Part shown: positions 26,194 through 30,975 of the stretch, piece by piece
How positions within the stretch are numbered: the first letter of the stretch is position 1
How the letters are laid out: each line of letters starts with the position of its first letter
NCBI RefSeq assembly: GCF_900636825.1
Contig: NZ_LR134318.1
Location: forward strand, 3,195,501 to 3,259,500
Length of the DNA stretch: 64,000 bases
Reading direction: 5' to 3'
Origin: Pseudomonas fluorescens
GTDB lineage: Bacteria > Pseudomonadota > Gammaproteobacteria > Pseudomonadales > Pseudomonadaceae
The notes under the pieces: generated by a model
What the model saw: the letters and a program-made list of their open reading frames with translations, nothing else
The model's database searches: none
Told to the model about the DNA's origin: nothing
Translations under genes and position numbers: made by a program

Positions 26194-26679
26194 ATGAATC
26201 TTCCACGCATTTGCTCGACCACCGGGCTGATAATTTCGAGTCTGTTCAGCATCGCTCATGCAGCTAATCTTGAGGACGTTGCGCCGTTTCCAAAGGCTGA
26301 GGCCGGATTCACACGGCAAGTGATTCATCTACCCAAGCAGGACCAGGAAGACAACTTCCGGGTGGAAATTCTCGCTGGCAAAACTCTTGAGGTTGATTGC
26401 AACCGTCAGCGCCTGGGTGGCGTTCTGGATGAGAAGAATCTGCAAGGCTGGGGCTATCCCTTCTACCGACTGGAGAAGGTTATCGGCCCGATGAGCACGA
26501 TGATGGCCTGCCCACCTGGCAGCCAGAAAAAACGCGCCTTTGTGCCCGTCGTCGGTGATGGGTTCATGTTGCGCTACAACAGCAAACTGCCGGTCGTGGT
26601 GTACGCCCCTTCGGACGTGGAGGTGCGTTACCGCATCTGGTCAGCTTCGGACAAAGTCGGCAGCGCCCTTCAGCAATAA
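26194..26679 (+). CDS. eco: Ecotin, periplasmic serine-protease inhibitor
   Basis: A 161-residue protein with a signal peptide (cleavage near AHA-AN) and a mature domain matching E. coli ecotin block by block: [44 protein letters not shown], the reactive loop STMMACP with the P1 methionine, and [25 protein letters not shown]. Ecotin dimers block trypsin-fold proteases such as host elastase. A perfect AAGGAGG site stands at 26182-26188. It is convergent with the threonine dehydratase gene, 12 bp away. Confidence 0.92.
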
Positions 26680-27699: not shown

Positions 27700-27745
27700 G
27701 GTCGTCTCCTGACGCTTTTTTCGAAACCCCGGAGACAGAAAGTAG

Positions 27746-27851
27746 AAACCCGCCTCTAGGGCGGGTTGGGTGCTGCAGTCGTGAGCTAGCCCGCCAAATG
27801 AGGAATGGCGGTAATAATGCTTGGCTGGCAGCGCAATACTGTAGAAGTCAT
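27746..27851 (-). promoter_or_regulatory. Candidate Ile/Thr transcription attenuator with leader peptide
   Basis: On the minus strand a 21-codon frame starts at 27851 and stops at 27786; its product contains Ser-Ile-Ile-Thr-Ala-Ile. The Ile codons overlap ACCGCC (segment 1), which can pair with GGCGGG (segment 2, at the leader stop). Segment 2 can instead pair with CCCGCC (segment 3), and segment 3 pairs best with GGCGGGTT (segment 4) to make the terminator AACCCGCC-CTAGA-GGCGGGTT followed by TCT. Stalling at the Ile codons would cover segment 1 and favour 2:3. The leader's ribosome site is weak. The pairings are read directly; function is inferred. Confidence 0.65.
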
Positions 27852-27951
27852 GTGACTGAAATTAGCCTGAGGACAGCGAATCCGTCAATGGCCAATTTCG
27901 GCCGAGGTCTGTAGGCTGACTACTCAACCCATCAGTTCAAGGAACGAATGC

Positions 27952-28287
27952 ATGATGTCTGTCGCCCTGCCCCTCACGGCTTTGCTCGCGTTCGCCGGTT
28001 ACACCGTTTCGGTGATGCTTCAGGCTGAACAATCCTTGGTTGATTTCGGCATCAGCCTCATGTCCCGCCCCGATACCGCACAAGTAGTCATCGATTTGTA
28101 CCTGTTGGCGACGCTGGCCGGAATATGGATGGTCAAGGACGCACGGTCTCGCGGGCAGACGATCATATCGGTCGTGCCTTATTTGCTGCTGACGTTGGTT
28201 TTCGTATCTATCGGGCCATTGTTGTACCTGGTAGTGCGGGGGTTTAAAGAGCGCAAAAAACTGGCGGTGTCGCCGTCCGCGGGATAA
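27952..28287 (+). CDS. Small membrane protein, DUF2834-like
   Basis: A 111-residue protein with three predicted TM helices: LTALLAFAGYTVSVML, VVIDLYLLATLAGIWMV and VVPYLLLTLVFVSIGPLLYLVV. The conserved-looking core VIDLYLLATLAGIWMVKDAR plus SIGPLLYLVVRG resembles DUF2834 proteins. Function unknown. CAAGGAACG is a reasonable ribosome site; the ATG at 27955 is equally possible. It starts on the opposite strand about 100 bp beyond the candidate attenuator of the threonine dehydratase gene. Confidence 0.75.
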   Translation: MMSVALPLTALLAFAGYTVSVMLQAEQSLVDFGISLMSRPDTAQVVIDLYLLATLAGIWMVKDARSRGQTIISVVPYLLLTLVFVSIGPLLYLVVRGFKERKKLAVSPSAG

Positions 28288-28386: not shown

Positions 28387-29532
28387 TCACTTCAAACCTA
28401 ATTTGTACAAGGACCCGTTTTCTTCGTCTGTCAGCACATACAGATAGCCATCTGGGCCCTGACGTACGTCGCGAATGCGCTGTTTGAGCTCACCGAGCAG
28501 GCGCTCCTCATGCACCACCTTGTCGCCATCGAACTGCAAGCGAATCAGTTCCTGGGTGACGAGTGCGCCGATGAATGCGTTGTGTTGCCATGGCTTGAAG
28601 CGATCGGCATCGTAGAACGTCATGCCCGTAATACCCGGCGACTTCTCCCACACATGGTGCGGTGCAACCGTGCCTTCCGCGTCTTTACCCTTGGCTTCGG
28701 GGATCGGTTGCATGGAATAGTTGATGCCATGGGTCGCCATTGGCCAGCCATAATTCTTGCCGCGCTCGATGATGTTGACTTCATCGCCACCGCGCGGGCC
28801 GTGCTCGTTTTCCCACAGCGTACCGGTCCACGGATTGAGTGCCGCGCCCTGCGGATTGCGGTGACCATACGACCAGATCTCCGGACGGACCCCGGACTGG
28901 CCAACAAACGGGTTGTCGTCCGGAACCTTCCCGTCGGGGTAGATCCGCACGATTTCGCCTTGCAGCTTGTCGAGATCCTGCGCAGTCGGCCGATCGTTGT
29001 TTTCACCCAGCATGATGAACAGATAGCCGTCGCGGTCGAATACCAGCCTGGAGCCGAAGTGGTTGCCGACCGAAAGTTTCGGTTCCTGGCGGAAGATCAC
29101 TTGGAAATCCTTGAGTGATTTCAGGTCGTCCGACAGTCGCCCTCGCCCCACCGCTGTTCCGGCCTTGTTGCCAGCGCCTCCGCCCTCGGCGTAGGACAAG
29201 TAGATCAGCCGGTCCTGTTTGAAGTCTGGCGACAGCGCCACGTCGAGCAACCCACCCTGGCCCTTGGCCCAGACTTGCGGGACACCGCTGATCGGTGCCG
29301 ACAGCTTGCCATCGGCACCGACGACGCGCAGTTTGCCCGGTCGCTCGGTGACCAGCATGCCTTGCCGATCCGGCAGAAACGCCAGGGCCCATGGATGCTC
29401 AAGGCCCTCGGTGATGGTGGTGACCTCGATGGTGCCCTGCTCGCTTTGTAGCTCTTTGGCGGCAGCGGCAAATGCCGGCGTGCTGATCAGCGCCCCGGCA
29501 CACAGGCTGGCTAGAAGGGTTTTACGCAACAT
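28387..29532 (-). CDS. PQQ-dependent aldose sugar dehydrogenase (Asd/YliI family)
   Basis: A 381-residue exported beta-propeller enzyme. The signal peptide is LLASLCAGALISTPAFAAA. Family landmarks: ITEGLEHPWALAFLPD, GLLDVALSPDF, VGNHFGSRLVFDRDGYLFIMLGE, SYGHRNPQGAALNPWTGTLWENEHGPRGGDEVNII and NYGWP, ending with IRDVRQGPDGYLYVLTDEENGSLYKL. Such enzymes oxidise aldoses in the periplasm with PQQ and calcium. The next gene upstream (29584-29919, same strand) lies 51 bp away and could be co-transcribed. A plus-strand frame of 202 codons is a shadow. Confidence 0.9.
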   Translation of the reverse strand: MLRKTLLASLCAGALISTPAFAAAAKELQSEQGTIEVTTITEGLEHPWALAFLPDRQGMLVTERPGKLRVVGADGKLSAPISGVPQVWAKGQGGLLDVALSPDFKQDRLIYLSYAEGGGAGNKAGTAVGRGRLSDDLKSLKDFQVIFRQEPKLSVGNHFGSRLVFDRDGYLFIMLGENNDRPTAQDLDKLQGEIVRIYPDGKVPDDNPFVGQSGVRPEIWSYGHRNPQGAALNPWTGTLWENEHGPRGGDEVNIIERGKNYGWPMATHGINYSMQPIPEAKGKDAEGTVAPHHVWEKSPGITGMTFYDADRFKPWQHNAFIGALVTQELIRLQFDGDKVVHEERLLGELKQRIRDVRQGPDGYLYVLTDEENGSLYKLGLK

Positions 29533-30108: not shown

Positions 30109-30975
30109 ATGGCTCGAGCAATCTGGAAAGGCGCGATCAGTTTCGGCTTGGTGCACATCCCCGTCGCACTGGTTTCGGCGACCTCGTCGCAAGGCGTGGA
30201 TTTCGACTGGCTCGACAGCCGCAGCATGGATCCGGTGGGTTACAAGCGAATCAACAAGGTGACCGGCAAGGAAGTCACCAAGGAGCATATCGTCAAGGGT
30301 GTGGCCTATGAAAAAGGTCGCTACGTGGTGCTCAGCGAAGAAGAGATCCGTTCCGCGCACCCGGTTTCAACGCAAACCATCGACATATTTTCCTTTGTTG
30401 ATGCCGAGCAGATTCCGCTGCAGAACATTGATACGCCGTATTACCTGGCCCCCGACAAACGCGGCGGCAAGGTCTACGCGTTGCTGCGCGAAACGTTGAG
30501 CAAAACCAACAAGGTCGCCCTCGCCCGCGTGGTTTTACACACCCGCCAATACCTTGCGGCATTGATGCCGCTGGAATCGGCGCTGGTATTGGTCAAGTTG
30601 CGCTGGCCCCAGGAAGTACGCAGTCTCGATGAACTGGCGCTCGGCAGCGAGGTAACCAAGCCGCAATTGGCTAAAGGTGAGCTGGACATGGCGAAACGCT
30701 TGGTCGAGGACATGAGCGCGGAGTGGAACCCCGACGAATACAAGGATGAATTCGAGGACAAAATAATGGCTCTGGTCGACAAAAAAGCCCATGAAGGCGA
30801 GATCGAGGATGTTGAAACAGTGAGCGGCGAGGAAGAACGCAAGTCGGCCGATGTGATCGATTTGACCGAGCTGCTTAAACGCAGTCTGGGTGGGAAAGCG
30901 CCGGCCAAGCCGAAAGCCAAAGCGGAAAAACCGGCGAAAGCTGCGCCGGCGAAAAAGACCAAGAAGGCGTCCTGA
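30109..30975 (+). CDS. ku: Non-homologous end-joining protein Ku
   Basis: A 288-residue bacterial Ku: MARAIWKGAISFGLVHIPVAL at the start, KGVAYEKGRYVVLSEEEI and IDIFSFVDAEQIPLQNID in the core, and the conserved MALVDKKAHEGEIE near residue 225. The last ~35 residues are a Lys/Ala/Pro tail (KPKAKAEKPAKAAPAKKTKK) of the sort that modulates DNA binding. Ku dimers thread onto broken DNA ends and recruit LigD; no ligD lies in this window. A TTGGAGG site precedes the start. A REP pair follows the stop. Confidence 0.95.
   Translation: MARAIWKGAISFGLVHIPVALVSATSSQGVDFDWLDSRSMDPVGYKRINKVTGKEVTKEHIVKGVAYEKGRYVVLSEEEIRSAHPVSTQTIDIFSFVDAEQIPLQNIDTPYYLAPDKRGGKVYALLRETLSKTNKVALARVVLHTRQYLAALMPLESALVLVKLRWPQEVRSLDELALGSEVTKPQLAKGELDMAKRLVEDMSAEWNPDEYKDEFEDKIMALVDKKAHEGEIEDVETVSGEEERKSADVIDLTELLKRSLGGKAPAKPKAKAEKPAKAAPAKKTKKAS

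Follow-up and report, generated by a model that had tools for sequence, protein, structure and literature searches.

The leader ahead of a short threonine dehydratase gene in Pseudomonas fluorescens is most likely (probability about 0.8) an isoleucine-specific, ribosome-mediated transcription attenuator, putatively read from a leaderless mRNA. This reading is drawn from comparison of the element with its relatives in other genomes. The catalogued RNA to whose family it belongs, 'sRNA P9', is best read as the terminated product of the proposed isoleucine attenuator.

Anatomy of the leader and its Rfam family

The window is the whole 64,000-nucleotide stretch of DNA that was analyzed, and all coordinates refer to it. 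The leader, the gene behind it and the neighboring genes are placed as follows.

27883..27888, minus strand: leader promoter, -35 element TTGACG, with an 18-nt spacer to the -10 element
27859..27864, minus strand: leader promoter, -10 element TAATTT, 7 nt 5' of the leader ATG
27786..27851, minus strand: leader ORF of 21 codons, MTSTVLRCQPSIITAIPHLAG followed by the stop, putatively leaderless
27818-27813, minus strand: regulatory codons Ile12 and Ile13 of the leader ORF, with Ile16 further on
27807..27811, minus strand: segment 1, CCGCC, within the leader ORF, directly after the Ile-Ile codons
27790..27795, minus strand: segment 2, GGCGGG, directly 5' of the leader stop; its partner is segment 1 or 3
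27760..27765, minus strand: segment 3, CCCGCC; its partner is segment 2 (antiterminator) or 4 (terminator)
27749-27754, minus strand: segment 4, GGCGGG, then a U-rich tail
27739..27767, minus strand: intrinsic terminator, composed of segment 3, loop, segment 4 and U-rich tail
27745..27821, minus strand: match to RF00624 (Pseudomonas sRNA P9), 84 bits
26692..27699, minus strand: putatively regulated gene, threonine dehydratase (IlvA type), 335 aa, Pfam PALP only, with a Shine-Dalgarno-like AGGAGA
26194-26679, plus strand: neighboring gene, ecotin (Pfam)
27952-28287, plus strand: DUF2834-like protein, just under the Pfam cut-off
28387-29532, minus strand: neighboring gene, glucose/sorbosone dehydrogenase (Pfam)

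An ORF at 30109-30975 on the plus strand has a start that resembles a bacterial Ku protein by eye.

A first-pass annotation of this DNA had described a 21-codon leader and mutually exclusive helices that end in a terminator before a threonine dehydratase gene, and this anatomy was confirmed at 27739-27851 on the minus strand. The annotation also called the element likely new, which does not hold for the sequence. The element is a member of the catalogued RNA family RF00624, with a score of 84 bits against a gathering score of 43 and a match that covers positions 1-74 of the 74 in the Rfam model. RF00624 describes the same RNA, typed by Rfam as an sRNA gene, and its 74-position model spans the helices and the terminator without the leader start or the promoter. 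The P9 sRNA reportedly goes back to Livny 2006, and to our knowledge its function is listed as unknown. A terminator scan located an 8-pair stem at 27767-27747 with a U-rich tail behind it; such a scan is weak when taken alone, as it gave 8 terminator-like sites in 3 kb versus 2.7 in shuffles. The 8-nt tail of the terminator has a mean of 6.2 U across 111 leaders.

Within the genus, 187 of 249 genomes have an RF00624 match, and in 180 it exceeds the cut-off. A family sample gave 22 of 59 genomes and a class sample 13 of 185 (3 over the cut-off); each of these three counts includes the genome of the window. None of 14 control genomes had a match. The leader model is rare in a class-wide sample (7 of 369 genomes, again including the genome of the window). 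The genome of the window has one match each to RF00624 and to model R1. The 132 distinct places examined comprise all but one of the listed weak or second matches and part of the strong ones. One of three genes, ilvA, a SnoaL-like gene or an AAA_33 gene, is preceded by the match at 109 of them, and 21 of the other 23 score at most 34.5 bits, under the gathering score of 43. These 21 weak matches without any of the three genes (L081-L090, L116-L125, and L127) were dropped as probable chance and 111 leaders were kept. Two of the 111 have no matched gene: L115, where an ORF has an AAA_18 match that falls short of the Pfam cut-off, and L011, which is at a contig end. L052 (G007 contig C18, 100632-100695) may include a tandem copy of the terminator part: 15 nt past the first P9 match there is a second, partial one, close to undetermined bases. 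An ORF that looks by eye like a GNAT acetyltransferase follows a weak leader, MNKLFSIAQAMIGTIQNERWVC, at L159 (G354 contig C27).

Reading frame, promoter and helices of the leader

An in-frame ATG lies 21-36 nt 5' of the central codons in 111 of 111 kept leaders, a count in which only the frame of the central codons was searched. A frame-blind count of ATGs at positions -40 to -15 gave 95 in the frame of the Ile codons versus 7 and 0 in the other two frames (94 non-redundant leaders), and the ATG-to-Ile distance varies (30, 27, 33, 21, and 24 nt). The leader stop falls 18 to 39 nt past the model start, in or beside segment 2, across the 111 leaders. None of 94 leaders has a stop in the leader frame between the ATG and the Ile codons, which is weak evidence because the second frame is nearly as open, with a stop in 4 of 94. 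The third frame has a stop in 89 of 94, largely from the TGA in ATGA as judged by eye.

The two central Ile codons of the leader are conserved, with Ile-Ile in 108 of the 111 leaders and Met replacing one Ile in the other 3. Changes in the two central Ile codons were 22 synonymous versus 8 non-synonymous over 152 distinct leaders, the wider SnoaL set included; the matching rule behind this count seeks Ile-Ile first, which favors synonymous changes, and related sequences are counted separately. The Ile codons of the leaders are 87% ATT (333 of 383, with 38 ATC and 12 ATA), and those of the downstream ilvA genes are 13% ATT (255 of 1917, with 1637 ATC and 25 ATA). A clear protein constraint was not found on the leader N-terminus, where 89 synonymous versus 220 non-synonymous changes correspond to 29% versus 24% at random. 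The message of the leader peptide, as this conservation pattern indicates, is its pair of Ile codons.

The promoter was defined by a -35 element with at least 4 of 6 matches to TTGACA and, after a spacing of 17 or 18 nt, a TANNNT whose end lies 6-8 nt from the ATG. It is present in 77 of 94 non-redundant leaders, compared to a mean of 0.89 and a maximum of 4 in mononucleotide shuffles, and the 17 leaders without it are mainly those ahead of SnoaL or AAA genes by eye. Base -1 of the leader ATG is C in 90 of 94. The Shine-Dalgarno energy of the leader is -2.46 versus -2.81 in single-base shuffles and -7.16 at the downstream gene starts (n = 88), a comparison that takes the best of several in-frame starts for the downstream genes and one start for the leader. 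Complementarity to the anti-Shine-Dalgarno before the leader ATG is at the shuffled level, and no Shine-Dalgarno was seen there. Because a sigma-70-like promoter is conserved next to the ATG and a Shine-Dalgarno is not seen, transcription most likely starts at the A of that ATG, give or take one or two bases, and the leader is probably read from a leaderless mRNA.

Alignment A1, used for the helices, contains 39 leaders from 42 cluster representatives; L115, L135, and L136, which have a longer first hairpin, were omitted. Helix 1:2 has 90.8% of its cells paired and 12 double-change cells, chiefly G-C to A-U, versus 3.0 in shuffles (reached by 0 of 500). The number of its pairs with a double change, 3, was reached by 117 of 500 shuffles and is less telling, and in 19 of 39 sequences the seventh pair of this helix does not form. 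Helix 3:4 has 98.1% of its cells paired and 5 double-change cells versus 0.4 in shuffles (reached by 0 of 500). Helix 2:3 is 100% paired in the 39 sequences with C-G to U-G at the same base in 10; it varies on one side only, which gives zero double changes and makes the shuffle control uninformative. The paired share with the partner slid by 1-3 columns is 29-61% for 1:2, 36-66% for 2:3, and 38-60% for 3:4. The covariation that had been put forward as a check across pseudomonads is present as compensating changes in 1:2 and 3:4, with 2:3 paired in every sequence.

The calculated energies of the window copy are -10.9 kcal/mol for 1:2, -12.3 kcal/mol for 2:3, and -14.2 kcal/mol for 3:4. When segment 1 is masked and before segment 4 has been made, 2:3 is predicted to fold at -13.1 kcal/mol. 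The terminator is stronger than the antiterminator, so the switch would need co-transcriptional timing, as such attenuators do. The mutually exclusive helices 1:2, 2:3, and 3:4 that an attenuator should have are thus present.

Genes behind the leader

The enzyme encoded downstream had been described as free of a regulatory domain, and its 335-residue sequence bears this out with a match to PALP only and none to Thr_dehydrat_C. The genome of the window keeps a second, full-length IlvA beside this leader-bearing short copy. This protein, IlvA1, has 507 aa, is 72% identical, and contains Thr_dehydrat_C; no leader was seen by eye in the 330 bases upstream of its gene. Thr_dehydrat_C is also present in L093, a long relative (520 aa) behind the same type of leader. 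By eye, a REP-like inverted repeat lies ahead of ilvA1 (L147), in the place that the leader has at ilvA2. In the portion of PMC5542712 available to us, the small RNA SrbA has ilvA2 among its putative targets.

A census of 59 genomes of the genus gave 99 IlvA at ~70% identity or more, of which 97 were sized by open frame. The leader is on 28 of 28 short IlvA and on 12 of 69 long IlvA. All 40 genomes with at least two IlvA have the leader on exactly one of them. Of the 19 genomes with a single IlvA, one (G022) has the leader on it; a contig end in that genome carries a fragment, 69% identical, that may be the second IlvA copy. In Pseudomonas, the leader would thus tell which of two threonine dehydratases isoleucine should switch.

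Trees were calculated from 79 leader-bearing copies (42 short and 37 long, with 9 unsized copies and L020 omitted), and their support values may sit on shifted nodes after re-rooting. The short IlvA fall into three groups, of which the main one has 36 members and the others are L038/L040 and L107-L110. Two tree runs disagree on where L038/L040 attach, which leaves two or three domain losses. With 10 IlvA1 copies added (L162 and L169 left out), some of the long leader-bearing copies fall among IlvA1, so copies were exchanged or duplicated.

These data bear on the earlier proposal that transcription control replaces allostery at this gene. The proposal is only partly supported. An origin of attenuation as a substitute for allostery was rejected, since the leader also precedes full-length IlvA and the short forms are scattered in the trees. 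As judged by these distributions, the leader does not require the loss of the regulatory domain. It may have permitted the loss, because loss was seen only in leader-bearing copies in this sample. L160 (G030) has an intact P9 leader before an ilvA remnant in which just a 50-residue stretch near the C-terminal end matches. L020 (G126 contig C4) has, behind the leader, an IlvA split into frames of 220 and 137 aa, through either a mutation or an error in the sequence.

Weaker P9 matches with the same leader type precede a SnoaL-like gene (~136 aa) or an AAA_33 gene, and the order in other genera of the family is leader-SnoaL-ilvA or leader-SnoaL-AAA. The SnoaL/YybH-like partner occurs in several classes of proteobacteria, at L068-L070, L074, L077-L080, L102, L105, L106, L129-L136, and 58 of L174-L253, and SnoaL loci are sometimes directly followed by an AAA_33 gene. 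The SnoaL set was obtained from an alignment of 10 SnoaL-like proteins against named genomes, and the best 80 of 276 loci were used. Titles among these best 80 of 276 include Pseudomonas, Methylomonas, Sideroxydans, Rhizobium, Massilia, Stenotrophomonas, and Desulfuromonadaceae. Model R1 (E <0.001) identified a leader upstream of the SnoaL gene in 58 of the best 80 of 276 loci and did not find one in the other 22. An ATG-started leader was picked in 58 of these 58 loci, with Ile-Ile in 53, and an AAA_33 relative follows in 10 of the 58. A looser promoter definition (7 of 12) selected 36 of 48 non-redundant SnoaL leaders, compared to a mean of 5 and a maximum of 12 in shuffles. A Shine-Dalgarno-like energy was calculated for 3 of 48 leaders of the SnoaL set versus 45 of 47 SnoaL starts. 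RF00624 was over its gathering score in 17 of 20 SnoaL loci given to the Rfam model, none of them labelled Pseudomonas.

The closest solved structure to the SnoaL-like family is 'hypothetical protein yybH' (2gxf), which we take to be the B. subtilis protein; the AAA_33 kinase gave only a marginal match. One query, run without a positive control, found no SnoaL gene in the genome of the window. A tentative extension, which we consider possible but unlikely, is that the P9-type leaders of Proteobacteria and of Desulfuromonas relatives all represent a single old, leaderless switch for isoleucine starvation. The core target would be the SnoaL/YybH-like protein, sometimes with the AAA_33 kinase, acting with threonine dehydratase (for example on a reactive product) or against a natural isoleucyl-tRNA synthetase inhibitor, and Pseudomonas would have coupled ilvA to the switch. 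If this were true, a natural isoleucyl-tRNA synthetase inhibitor would itself trip the switch. The cis-element, shared in many proteobacteria, ties the uncharacterised SnoaL/YybH-like and AAA_33 families to isoleucine supply, so that their function becomes directly testable.

Proposed mechanism, alternatives and known systems

The mechanism we propose starts with transcription at or near the A of the leader ATG, from which the leader peptide would be translated on a leaderless mRNA. When charged tRNA-Ile is ample, the ribosome would reach the UAG beside segment 2 and mask that segment. The 3:4 terminator would then form and an RNA of ~110 nt, corresponding to 'sRNA P9', would be released. When charged tRNA-Ile is scarce, the ribosome would stall at Ile12/Ile13 over segment 1, segment 2 would pair with segment 3, the terminator would be blocked, and ilvA would be transcribed. 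Without a loaded ribosome, 1:2 and 3:4 would both form and transcription would stop. The frame, the codons and the helices strongly support the attenuator that the first-pass annotation had suggested, in which a ribosome at the Ile codons next to segment 1 would control transcription. A concrete function is offered in this way for a catalogued Pseudomonas small RNA as the terminated leader of an isoleucine attenuator.

The amino acid sensed had been given as isoleucine or threonine. A threonine attenuator, or one that responds to both, is suggested by a Thr codon that would also be read, by threonine being the substrate of the enzyme, and by the presence of Thr directly after the Ile-Ile pair in 100 of 108 leaders that have this pair. 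Segment 1 takes up two bases of this Thr codon, which alone is enough to conserve them. Of 152 distinct leaders, 115 have Thr at this position and the remaining 37 have Ala, Leu, Arg, Ser, Pro, Met, Asn, or Val; among the 53 Ile-Ile leaders of the wider SnoaL set, Thr is next in just 28. Threonine as the signal was rejected on this drift and is highly improbable, and the isoleucine half of the earlier claim is retained on the Ile-Ile pair and the 22:8 ratio of changes. The signal is isoleucine rather than threonine by this pattern, in which the Ile codons stay and the next codon drifts.

It is very unlikely, if marginally less so, that P9 is a trans-acting small RNA and ilvA a mere neighbor. 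The element does have its own promoter and terminator, Rfam types RF00624 as a gene under the name 'Pseudomonas sRNA P9', and the rnTrpL of S. meliloti is a precedent for an attenuator RNA acting in trans in the available part of PMC7298713. A trans-acting RNA would not need a conserved leader ORF, however, and a mere neighbor is hard to reconcile with 109 of 132 places that precede the same three genes (21 of the other 23 at 34.5 bits or less) or with a leader upstream in 58 of the best 80 of 276 loci of the SnoaL set, which was found by protein and not by RNA. P9 may act in trans besides its cis role. Least credible of all is an ordinary intrinsic terminator or a metabolite-binding RNA in which conservation of the RNA has produced the small ORF incidentally. 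This would predict the strong nucleotide-level conservation seen in ATTATT and the helices, but the ATGs keep to the Ile-codon frame while their spacing to the Ile codons varies, and the changes in the Ile codons are mostly synonymous. A metabolite-binding RNA is further opposed by the Rfam scan of the whole window, in which no family besides RF00624 reached its gathering score and the T-box and described aptamer families had no match at that level.

The main text of Naville and Gautheret 2010 (PMC2965389), in its available part, contains no mention of threonine, ilv, isoleucine or dehydratase, and the available parts of PMC3460626 and PMC7822408 hold nothing on a P9/ilvA leader. No report of an isoleucine attenuator before Pseudomonas ilvA, or of P9 as an attenuator, was found among the listed titles and abstract starts of the open-licence literature, and an earlier prediction is possible. 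Vitreschak 2004 is said to be older comparative work on attenuators.

The attenuators of enteric bacteria (ilvGMEDA, thrABC, trp, and his leaders) have codons for the end product, 1:2/2:3/3:4 helices, and a U-tract terminator, and the P9 leader shares all of these. The P9 leader differs in that its promoter abuts the ATG, no Shine-Dalgarno is seen, the codons are for Ile only, and one or two genes lie downstream, some of them uncharacterised. For gammaproteobacteria it would supply a probable case of a leaderless leader peptide, of which the known examples we can name are Sinorhizobium rnTrpL and the leaders of mycobacteria. In the accessible portion of PMC7298713, rnTrpL/peTrpL of Sinorhizobium meliloti is an attenuator RNA that begins directly at the ATG of its leader ORF and, after release as a small RNA, also acts in trans. 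The 5' end and the trans functions are reported for rnTrpL, whereas for the P9 leader a 5' end at the ATG is a prediction and action in trans a possibility, and the amino acid is Trp in rnTrpL and Ile in the P9 leader.
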